NCBI RefSeq assembly: GCF_024006985.1
Contig: NZ_JAMXIB010000001.1
Span: forward strand, 310,001 to 374,000
Direction of reading: 5' to 3'
Length of the DNA stretch: 64,000 bases
DNA from: Robiginitalea marina
GTDB taxonomy: Bacteria > Bacteroidota > Bacteroidia > Flavobacteriales > Flavobacteriaceae
This document shows, piece after piece, positions 56,920 to 59,127 of the stretch. How positions within the stretch are numbered: the first letter of the stretch is position 1; each line of letters begins with the position of its first letter. A program made the position numbers and the translations under genes. The notes below the pieces were generated by a model. That model saw only the letters and a list, made by a program, of their open reading frames with translations. It made no database searches and was not told where the DNA came from.

Positions 56920-58371
56920 TCAGCGGAAATGGTTTTTCAGGAAAAGGCGGCCGTTTTCCGAAAAGATACGGCGGATTACTTCATCGGCAGAAATATGGTT
57001 CTCCGACAGATTCCACCGGGCATCCTTCAGGTAATTATAGGCATGCCGCTCCAGGAAATCGGCCAGGAACGGAAGTTCCTCCGCTGTCCAAAAGCCATTG
57101 AGCGGATCGATTATACCATCAAAATCGGAACCGATGGCCATGCAGCCCCAGGCAAAAAGCCCGGCCGCATCCAGGGTTTCAGCCACGTGCTGCACCTGGA
57201 ACCAAAGCAGTTCTGACCGGTAGTGCATAATCTTATGCCGGTGGACTGAAGTTTTGGTTTTTTCCAGGACTTCCCGGCTCACAATGCGCCTTTCATCGAG
57301 CTGGAGGGCGAAAAGCCCCCCACTTCTGGCAATCCGGACAATTTCATCGTCATAAAAGTTGATCTCCACCGGATTCAGCCGCCGGGCATTGGGACGGCTT
57401 GAAGGAATGGGGTTTTCGGAGGATATGAGGCCATTGCATGCCCCATGGCTCACCAGGAGCGGAAAATCTGTATCGCCAAAGCCTCCCGATTCGCGTAAGT
57501 TGTAGAATTCCTGACGGGCCCGGGCACTCATATGCTTCAGGTCGGGCAGAACCCTGGGGCCATGAACCCGGGAAAGCATCTCCGAAATGACCCTGCGCCC
57601 AAGGGCGGTGATCCCGAGCCCCATCCCCTCTGCCTGGTCCACGTGGCGGCTAACCACCCCTGAAAGGCTGGGGGCATGCCCGCAAATATGATTCCAGAAG
57701 TGATGGGCCAGGGTGATGAAAAAAGGCGGGGTTTCCCAACCCTTGATTTCACGTAGGCGCAAAATGACCCCTTCTTCCTGCGGGTCCTCCCCCAACCCCG
57801 TGTTCAATACATGGAGGCCTTCTATACTGAGTACCACGGCAATGGTTCGGATACCCCCGGTGGCCGCCTGCTCCCGAAAGGCTTCGATTTCCGAATACCC
57901 GGCCACCAGGCGATACGTGTACCGACCCCCGGGGAGGGTAACCACCTTCCCCTGCCGCTGGCGATAAAACTGGTACTCCAGTTTAAGGTCTTCGAAGTAA
58001 TCCGTCAATTGCTGGAGGTGGTCTATGCGCCTGTCCCCGATGCCCACGGCAAAATTCAGCAGCAGGTCCCGGACCAGTTCATTGCGGATCCCGTTATTCA
58101 CAAAACCGCGCTCCAGTGGGTACAGGGAGGCGCAAATGACCTCTACCCCTCCCCTGGCGAGGCTATGGCCATTGGACTGCGAAAATTTAGTCAGTCCCCC
58201 GACAAAGTTCAGTAGCTTATCTGGCAGGGATGGCGGGTCGTACCGCCACAGGCTGGTCTTATGGGAGCGGTGTCCGCTTTGGGTTCCTGCCGGGTCCTTT
58301 CTGAAACTGTGCCCGAATGGCTTTAGGGCCGGGTGGCAGTGGAAATCGATATAAGCGTTTTCATCAGGCAT
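56920..58371 (-). CDS. M19 (membrane dipeptidase-like) metallo-hydrolase
   Basis: 483 aa TIM-barrel hydrolase. N-terminal YIDFHCHP supplies HxH; AVVLSIEGLH gives the bridging acidic residue; ITLAHHFWN and GSDFDGI near 440 complete the M19 pattern. It is longer than typical M19 (about 330-400), with insertions after residue 20 and in 200-260. No signal peptide, so cytoplasmic. Dipeptide substrate is inferred from family. The -7-like TATTTTTC (58415-58422) is a weak match. Confidence 0.72.
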   Translation of the reverse strand: MPDENAYIDFHCHPALKPFGHSFRKDPAGTQSGHRSHKTSLWRYDPPSLPDKLLNFVGGLTKFSQSNGHSLARGGVEVICASLYPLERGFVNNGIRNELVRDLLLNFAVGIGDRRIDHLQQLTDYFEDLKLEYQFYRQRQGKVVTLPGGRYTYRLVAGYSEIEAFREQAATGGIRTIAVVLSIEGLHVLNTGLGEDPQEEGVILRLREIKGWETPPFFITLAHHFWNHICGHAPSLSGVVSRHVDQAEGMGLGITALGRRVISEMLSRVHGPRVLPDLKHMSARARQEFYNLRESGGFGDTDFPLLVSHGACNGLISSENPIPSSRPNARRLNPVEINFYDDEIVRIARSGGLFALQLDERRIVSREVLEKTKTSVHRHKIMHYRSELLWFQVQHVAETLDAAGLFAWGCMAIGSDFDGIIDPLNGFWTAEELPFLADFLERHAYNYLKDARWNLSENHISADEVIRRIFSENGRLFLKNHFR

Positions 58372-58748
58372 ATTCCTCCTGGTCGAAAAGATCCGCCACA
58401 AGGGGATCGCAACAGAAAAATACGGTTTTTTATTGGTTGCCCGTGGGTCCGGTATGGATTTTTATCGCATCCGGGACCTGGTTACAGGAACAGGCTTTTG
58501 CAGGGAACCGCATACGGGCAGCCCTCTGCACCGCTTCCAAAGGACTTAGGTTCAATTCCAGGCATGAGCCTTCCCTCCCCCTTTTAAATGGTAAATATTC
58601 ATATTGGGATTTCATGGACCAACCCCTGTGTGTTAAAAATTGTTTAAAATGGTACCTTTTTATACATAGTACTGTAACAAATCGAAGAAACCATCGTCTT
58701 CCAAGTGTAATCAAATCAATTAATCATCAATCACAAAAACGCATTATC
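58372..58748. other. intergenic region and leader of the microprotein transcript
   Basis: 377 bp. The left 230 bp show no gene. From about 58620 the sequence is AT-rich and holds a possible promoter (TTGTTT about 58630 and TATACA about 58660, or TACCTTTT), then ATCATCAATCA just before the first microprotein. That motif is repeated before the second. Confidence 0.5.
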
Positions 58749-58862
58749 ATGAGAACTAGCAGCAAATCAACACCCACGGAATCAAGGAGAGGCTCTTATT
58801 TTTCCAGCTTTAAAAATACCAGTCGGGTACGCTGGAATGAATACAGGCATTACGTTTCCTAA
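58749..58862 (+). CDS. microprotein 1 of a tandem paralogous pair
   Basis: 37 aa, net charge about +6. It shares 22 of 37 residues with the next gene, colinear and without gaps. Invariant core: TS.KS.PTE.RR...FS.FK...RVRW.E.R.YV. Ten of the 21 shared residues after the start Met use different codons, so selection on the peptide is likely. No signal peptide or transmembrane segment. No family recognised. Preceded by ATCATCAATCA. Confidence 0.7.
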   Translation: MRTSSKSTPTESRRGSYFSSFKNTSRVRWNEYRHYVS

Positions 58863-58930
58863 AAACCCCCATCATCAATCAACAATCATCAATCAAAAAG
58901 CATTTAACAACATCAAAAAACGAAACCGTC

Positions 58931-59044
58931 ATGAAAACAAGTTTTAAATCCCTGCCCACTGAAACCCGAAGGTTTATGTTCTTTTCGACTTTTAAAGACA
59001 GCCGTCGCGTCCGCTGGTCCGAATCCAGGACCTATGTTTATTAG
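58931..59044 (+). CDS. microprotein 2 of a tandem paralogous pair
   Basis: 37 aa paralogue of microprotein 1, 68 nt downstream, ending in RVRWSESRTYVY. The spacer repeats ATCATCAATCA and ends in AT-rich sequence before the ATG, so the leader was duplicated too. Strong terminator 50 nt later. Same length and same net charge as its partner. Function unknown. Confidence 0.7.
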   Translation: MKTSFKSLPTETRRFMFFSTFKDSRRVRWSESRTYVY

Positions 59045-59094
59045 CCTTGTCGGCCCGGGGAAAGTAAGGATCCGAATCCGGCCTTTCGAATGAT

Positions 59095-59127
59095 AAAATC
59101 GTATGCTTGTGCATACGATTTTTTTTT
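59095..59127. terminator. strong rho-independent terminator
   Basis: AAAATCGTATGC / GCATACGATTTT stem (12 bp) with a 4-nt loop and nine T on the plus strand: end of the microprotein transcript. It also faces the end of the minus-strand Moco operon. Confidence 0.93.

Follow-up and report, generated by a model that had tools for sequence, protein, structure and literature searches.

The DNA considered here, called the window throughout, is a stretch of 64,000 nucleotides from Robiginitalea marina (positions 310,001 to 374,000 of contig NZ_JAMXIB010000001.1), and the element in question is a tandem pair of short genes encoding basic 37-residue microproteins behind a composite promoter of the extracytoplasmic function (ECF) sigma type. 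The whole composite promoter occupies positions 58631-58699 of the window, and the open reading frames (ORFs) and signals of the locus are as follows:

58631-58656, forward strand: upstream part of the promoter, with GTTAAA (58632-58637) and the left GTAC half-site (GGTACC, 58651-58656)
58666-58673, forward strand: right half-site ATAGTACT, joined to the -35 box
58673-58699, forward strand (contig 368674-368699): ECF-sigma-type promoter TGTAACA-N15-CGTCT, -35 box at 58673-58679 and -10 box at 58695-58699
58723-58733, forward strand: ATCATCAATCA leader of the first ORF
58749-58862, forward strand: microprotein 1, 37 aa, net charge +6, with a W-x3-R-x-Y tail (RVRWNEYRHYVS)
58871-58895, forward strand: two ATCATCAATCA repeats, leader of the second ORF
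58931-59044, forward strand: microprotein 2, 37 aa (RVRWSESRTYVY), net charge +6
59095-59127, forward strand: intrinsic terminator, 12-pair stem and T run

A sequence-only reading of this stretch had described the two frames as unrecognised proteins under selection, and its observations are confirmed. Both 37-aa frames are present and share 22 of 37 residues without a gap, and 10 of the 21 shared non-start residues use different codons, synonymous variation being possible at 20 of these 21. The leader ATCATCAATCA which it reported occurs three times in the 64-kb window (58723, 58871 and 58885), against an expectation of 0.05, and all three copies sit at the pair. Likewise, the terminator has a 12-pair stem (59095-59122) with a 4-nt loop and nine T at 59119-59127, four of which are paired within the stem. 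Neither ORF matches Pfam, NCBIfam or Rfam. Within the genome, microprotein 2 used as a query finds microprotein 1 with an E value of 5.5e-9. The ATCATCAATCA leader was considered as a mark of the 37-mer family and rejected, since leaders of this type also precede unrelated genes with ECF-type sites. In the ORF list of the window the second ORF appears as a separate ATG ORF; microprotein 1 is the in-frame tail of a 181-aa open frame (58317-58862), so that gene callers could report the longer frame with a false start. Given that an M19-peptidase-like gene diverges 378 nt upstream of the pair and an amidohydrolase-like gene converges on it 118 nt downstream, the pair looks like a self-contained two-gene transcription unit. 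The earlier interpretation, which offered small regulators, nucleic-acid-binding peptides or precursors of modified peptides, is partly supported. The composite promoter, the family-wide spread and the other tandem microproteins were beyond the reach of that reading. Judging from the sequences compared, the finding is larger than first reported, namely a putative stress-promoter microprotein set across Flavobacteriaceae.

With regard to the distribution of the 37-aa family, microprotein 2 finds relatives in 8 of 9 other Robiginitalea genomes at E <= 5.6e-8 (0.11 in the ninth, G009). With a single ORF as the query, 29 of 99 genomes matched at E <= 1, many of them near chance, the strong matches lying in these eight genomes and in five other genera (G027, G034, G035, G041, G046). 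A family profile, built from an alignment of 45 members and applied with a threshold of E <= 0.001, matched in 59 of 397 Flavobacteriaceae genomes, representing 37 of 237 genera. In a draw of 296 genomes from the order, six carried 37-mers, five in the family and one, a weak match, outside it (G540, E 2.8e-4), and in a draw from the phylum, whose listed rows are mostly complete genomes of Flavobacteriaceae, the three holders among 296 genomes all belong to that family. The holders among 52 loci include Robiginitalea, Eudoraea, Muriicola, Poritiphilus, Maribacter, Pricia and Pelagihabitans. A phage or plasmid origin was rejected, viral contigs (IMG/VR), phage and plasmid records having given no match to one pattern set and then to one 37-aa query.

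After removal of copies with identical sequence and flanks, 190 of 294 copies were retained in 88 arrays (27 single, 26 double, 29 triple and 6 quadruple), counts that are not natural frequencies, as many loci were fetched because they matched. Eudoraea-type loci (L110, L114, L119, L121) have three positions, each with its own sequence recurring across loci, and other arrays contain identical proteins (two in L052 and four in L271); both dose and diversification may matter for the tandem copies.

The proposed selection on protein is borne out by 182 of the 190 copies, the eight outside 34-39 aa having been dropped. The ratio of nonsynonymous to synonymous differences (pN/pS) is 0.14, 0.23 and 0.35 at DNA identities of about 0.9, 0.8 and 0.7, respectively, and substitutions fall mostly on the third codon position (2807, 2401 and 7268 for the three positions). 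Among the kept columns of the alignment, W30 and R27 are conserved in 99%, R34 in 96% and F19 and S20 in 94%. The 20 nt before array starts contain 57% A and 5% G, compared with 39% and 14% for 731 other, larger genes; A-rich, G-poor leaders are of the type expected for strong starts in this phylum. These data bear on the very unlikely alternative that the transcript acts as an RNA, with the ORFs incidental or merely protective. A short terminated unit with a stress-type promoter is indeed reminiscent of the sigma-E small RNAs (sRNAs) found elsewhere, and six loci (L106, L110, L114, L116, L119, L121; alignment A6, columns 45-71) retain a small hairpin in the array leader, with one-sided changes only. 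Rfp11 of Flavobacterium psychrophilum is also a putative RNA with an ECF-type promoter (PMC9723704). Against this, RNAalifold on six close orthologous arrays found two-sided changes in 2 of 96 pairs, one of them in a hairpin after the last ORF, and Rfam gave no match at E <= 1. The codon pattern of substitutions, seen in three classes of microproteins, is the reason why action of the RNA alone is not retained as the preferred explanation; instead of the structured RNA devoid of protein conservation that the sequence-only reading had named as its refutation, a conserved protein with little covariation was found.

The pair shares its promoter with most arrays. Among the 87 arrays with enough upstream DNA, the pattern GTAAC-N14..18-CGTC was found within 900 nt in 64, compared with 4 of 540 control genes from these loci, and it precedes 55 of the 61 multi-copy arrays and 9 of the 26 single copies. 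In these 64 promoters, GTACTGTAAC, in which GTAC is fused to the -35 box, occurs in 59, the left GTAC in 56 and GTTAAA in 54, giving a consensus of TGTTAAA, TAAAA, RGTACY, about 12 nt, ATAGTACTGTAACA, 15-16 nt and CGTC. Furthermore, in a comparison drawing on 37 sites of six genomes and six sites of the own genome, GTAC directly precedes TGTAACA at 8 of 8 array sites and at 0 of 35 other TGTAACA-N-CGTCT sites, which suggests that a second factor may act on the array promoters.

A candidate for the sigma factor itself emerges from the other sites. The own genome contains six GTAACA-N14..17-CGTCT sites, compared with two for the reversed pattern, and one strict site lies just upstream of an ECF sigma gene (L148) of the NCBIfam GFO_1088 family (sigma_PG0214, NF058625; 233.7 bits, cut-off 130), which is followed by a gene for a 139-aa protein without a confident family and then by one for a GFO_1090/DUF4252 protein. 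Six other genomes hold 37 TGTAACA-N15/16-CGTCT sites, all of which were read, compared with two reversed ones, and in five of these genomes (G002, G003, G008, G035, G041) a site also precedes the sigma gene; the six sigma proteins, including that of the own genome, match NF058625 at 227-241 bits (cut-off 130). The other genes behind these sites, named by eye, include MacB-like permeases, M16 peptidases and DUF2807-like, TolC-like and TonB/carboxypeptidase-regulatory proteins, and several of the 37 sites, perhaps due to chance, have no evident gene. ECF-type control of the arrays is well supported by sequence, and from the sites before the sigma genes we infer induction by the GFO_1088/PG0214-type sigma factor. 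Promoter boxes common to the arrays and the sigma gene would also suit feedback regulators, in which binding of the microproteins to the ECF sigma factor, its anti-sigma factor or RNA polymerase turns off or adjusts the inducing response. This is the chief rival of a target in RNA or the ribosome and is held to be unlikely: the short linear C-terminal motif does resemble peptide ligands, but up to four copies and several unlike classes would seem to exceed what feedback needs.

Two further observations were made at ECF-type sites. TGTAACA-N-CGTCT sites in three Robiginitalea genomes (L158, L162, L187) are followed by similar DNA in which no gene is evident on the same strand; an sRNA or an antisense unit may lie there. 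In G003 (L169/L174), two sites about 528 nt apart each precede a 112-114-aa secreted-type protein, the two being apparently tandem paralogues.

The composite promoter extends beyond the 37-mers. A search for GTACTGTAACA-N15/16-CGTCT was positive in 152 of 395 family genomes, from 105 of 237 genera, none of the matches listed being to the reversed composite pattern, and by a hand tally it occurs in 43 of 58 genomes with 37-mers and in 109 of 337 without. In an order draw of 242 genomes, the site was found in seven, all in Flavobacteriaceae (40 rows by count), and in 0 of 202 'same order' rows outside the family; the reversed pattern matched once in this draw. Altogether, 91 composite sites were examined in 90 loci, comprising 30 first loci and 60 chosen regions, nearly all from genomes without 37-mers. 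At 72 of the 91 sites there are 28-aa ORFs of the type MRTLNNNQLTGTLNGTKSNQWNTKRRYR, in one to four copies, and 26 distinct 43-44-aa ORFs ending like WKGTKRYAH were also found; since the class patterns were written after the first 30 loci, the counts there are partly circular, the 60 regions having been fetched afterwards. An ORF of up to 60 aa that carries W-x3-[RK]-x-[YFH] close to its end is present at 83 of the 91 sites, compared with 120 of 2000 random windows from array loci, and is missing from eight (L217, twice, L224, L227, L236, L258, L259, L260). These classes are likewise under purifying selection, with pN/pS of 0.22 at 90% identity for the 28-aa class (115 pairs) and 0.29 at 80% for the 44-aa class (six pairs). 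An extra ORF stands in front of 22 of the 37-mer arrays and is GFGW-like in 21 of them (alignment A3), with weaker selection (0.25 at 80% in five pairs and 0.70 at 90% in one pair). In Pfam, the 28-mers gave two families with 1 of 44 members each (best 0.11) and the 44-mers gave at best a zinc-ribbon family (2 of 24, 0.014), all judged to be chance, and one member each of the 28-aa, 44-aa and GFGW classes had no match in NCBIfam.

With regard to the relationship between the classes, the profile of the 28-mers aligns with those of the 37-mers and the 44-mers at the W, R and Y residues, in both cases at low probability, and the classes have promoter and position in common. Both 28-mers and a 37-mer-like ORF stand behind one promoter in L212, and L271 contains a 24-aa form with SKRVRWSAHRNY. 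The 28-mer was not found at E <= 0.1 in 13 of 16 genomes with 37-mers, and its profile matched in 5 of 246 genomes of an order draw, one of them weakly and outside the family (G542). One origin of the classes with replacement is plausible, and not proven.

Some composite promoters precede other products. Behind that of L227 lie, in tandem, four almost identical ORFs of 29 aa that lack the Trp motif and end in GYFKRRIA, and L236 has a peptide which appears related by eye. In L217, L258 and L259 the promoters stand before 141-188-aa proteins with signal-peptide-like starts, two of them in tandem in L217. Moreover, at 32 of the 91 composite sites (L190-L279, e.g. L195 and L223) the microproteins are followed within 900 nt by the start of an ExbD-like gene, confirmed by Pfam in one case, and it is possible that these genes share a transcript or regulon with the microproteins.

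Such a gene downstream, together with the fixed C-terminal motif of the short ORFs, is what would be expected if the microproteins were leader peptides, attenuators or ribosome-arrest peptides controlling the next gene. Of 67 genes that come next after an array, 25 run in the direction of the array, but 42 are convergent, and a terminator-like hairpin lies within 160 nt of 70 of the 88 array ends, compared with 145 of 440 shuffles. Furthermore, the following genes differ among arrays, and the unit in the window closes with its terminator ahead of a convergent gene, so leader peptides are rated as very improbable, below a function of the RNA.

The sequence properties of the microproteins bear on their possible target. 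The mean net charge is +6.1 for the 37-aa, +5.8 for the 28-aa and +6.2 for the 44-aa class; in the 37-mers it ranges from +3 to +9, the commonest residues are R, S, T, F and K, and aromatics are numerous. Neither a signal peptide nor a membrane or hydrophobic segment was seen in the 37-mers by eye and composition. An AlphaFold2 model has a mean predicted local distance difference test score (pLDDT) of 60, which does not support a stable fold; as far as this model can tell, the microproteins are probably unfolded. Searches with the 37-mers gave four families in PHROGs (1 of 45 members each, best E 0.0018), four in Pfam (1 of 45 each, best 0.029) and one in NCBIfam (1 of 45, 0.21), all judged to be chance, and a profile search of the PDB gave only two chance-like matches, the best being an unrelated receptor (E 0.06). 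The charge and the wealth of aromatics would also fit membrane- or envelope-active cationic peptides, toxin-like or protective, made under envelope stress. Envelope-type proteins, named by eye, stand behind other sites, and the tandem copies are reminiscent of type I toxin arrays. Nevertheless, the lack of any hydrophobic segment or signal peptide discernible by eye, and the absence of matches in the viral, phage and plasmid records, speak against it, and this explanation is rated as rather unlikely, behind sigma feedback.

The explanation preferred here, to which about an even chance is given, is that the pair is the microprotein arm of an ECF stress regulon and encodes two cationic peptides likely acting on RNA or ribosomes. 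Release of the GFO_1088/PG0214-type sigma factor would lead to synthesis of both microproteins, the tandem copies raising the dose and the distinct, conserved copies supplying variants. As no signal or membrane segment is seen by eye, the peptides would remain cytoplasmic, where the Arg/Lys-rich tail with its Trp and Tyr would attach them to a large, negatively charged partner, RNA or the ribosome being the most likely. This binding would adjust translation or mRNA fate in envelope, oxidative or nutrient stress. RNA and the ribosome are the first choice because of the composition and because flavobacteria are not known to possess Hfq.

Several points weigh against this proposal. Binding to RNA or ribosomes is suggested by composition only, and the low pLDDT may equally stem from a shallow alignment. 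The motif is missing from 23 of the 87 arrays, 17 of which are single copies; at least five motif-less arrays come from genomes that are assigned to Robiginitalea or bear that name in their title (L038, twice, L046, L100, L132), so control of the arrays is not uniform, and by the hand tally an exact composite site is missing from 15 of the 58 genomes that have 37-mers. A looser form of the promoter is not enriched in the own genome (14 sites, compared with 16 reversed), and the boxes alone therefore define no regulon in this genome. None of the six sites in G034 adjoins a sigma gene, and another ECF sigma factor of these cells could read the array promoter. Regarding the classes, the comparison of 37- with 28-mer profiles has a P value of 0.0026 and that of 44- with 28-mers one of 0.0016, with an HHsearch probability of only 12-16%. 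The idea that the GFGW ORF is a divergent 37-mer is not supported; the profiles do not align.

The neighbouring genes were surveyed at 69 non-duplicate arrays, which yielded 50 clusters shared by at least two arrays, with 20 annotated representatives. The commonest neighbour family is DUF4251 (17 of 69 arrays). A PCMT-type methyltransferase gene lies beside 14 arrays and another methyltransferase beside 12, and at 15 one of the three closest genes encodes an EF-G-like protein of about 700 aa, usually as a divergent gene adjoining the array (L113, L106, L110, L114, L119, L121). The EF-G-like genes are accompanied by M19-peptidase-like and PCMT-type genes. As a clue to a partnership this setting was rejected: these and other genes are shared by some of the loci, with different genes elsewhere, and it is probably the ancestral locus.

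The same survey gives little support to the earlier suggestion of precursors of modified peptides, that is, peptides of the ribosomally synthesised and post-translationally modified kind, or of secreted signal peptides. Families of short variable peptides with conserved ends have that appearance, and the two methyltransferases could be read in its favour. Yet the PCMT-type gene is convergent and limited to part of the loci, the commonest neighbour is DUF4251, and no other typical enzyme is found among the 20 annotated representatives; among the explanations weighed, this one is considered the least probable.

The microprotein genes, apparently a prominent target of a conserved and little-studied ECF sigma factor, are not in the curated libraries searched. 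Confirmation would mean that one of the main products of the stress response of this marine group has so far been overlooked, and that an 'sRNA' mapped at such a promoter deserves a coding check. The promoter is a ready handle, as one pattern locates the site in 152 of 395 sampled family genomes. The microproteins were not found described in the open-access literature; the kind, small products of stress sigma factors, is known, and, within the scope of these searches, the proteins and their composite promoter are new.

With regard to related systems, Porphyromonas gingivalis, which was not searched here, is not known to have a microprotein array, and its strain FLL361 is taken to be the PG_0686 mutant. 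PG_0214-PG_0216 of this species encode an ECF sigma factor, a putative anti-sigma factor and a DUF4252 protein and are reported to be about 8- to 11-fold up in FLL361 under the second condition tabulated (PMC10101095), the sigma family and the DUF4252 neighbour being the same as in L148. The SM6 promoters of F. psychrophilum have an ECF-type motif as here, are induced at low nutrients and have an ECF/anti-sigma pair among their targets, whereas tandem microproteins or GTAC half-sites are not described in the accessible part of that report (PMC9723704). Genes of the type IX secretion system (T9SS), which are among the SM6 targets in the same portion (PMC9723704), were not noticed among the sites read here, and SM6 need not be the motif of a GFO_1088-type sigma factor. 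By analogy, the data on SM6 and PG_0214-PG_0216 suggest possible signals and show nothing for these arrays.

Other small stress products offer partial parallels. The type I toxins Ldr and Ibs are tandem, short and easily missed, like the 37-mers, and they are hydrophobic peptides with an antisense RNA, whereas the 37-mers are hydrophilic and basic and, judged by composition, are not the hydrophobic membrane-spanning peptides that define a type I toxin. SRA/bS22 and RMF are small, basic, stress-induced proteins associated with the ribosome, which are similarly short and rich in Arg and Lys, with no sequence match to the 37-mers in the PDB profile search. In enterobacteria, the sRNAs and small proteins of the sigma-E regulon form an arm of the envelope-stress response that consists of short terminated transcripts, in which mainly the RNA acts; the transcripts described here are alike in being short, terminated and of the stress type, and differ in that selection acts on the protein. 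A tentative extension, to which appreciably less weight is given than to the microprotein arm itself, is that Flavobacteriaceae possess a protein counterpart of this sigma-E sRNA arm. If true, this would be a new class of stress effectors, with its promoter in 152 of 395 sampled family genomes and its proteins absent from the family libraries searched: the composite promoter would drive tandem sets of unlike microproteins with nothing in common but the W-x3-[RK]-x-[YF] tail, and the docking of this tail on a single target (a hub protein, RNA or the ribosome) would reprogramme the cell under stress.
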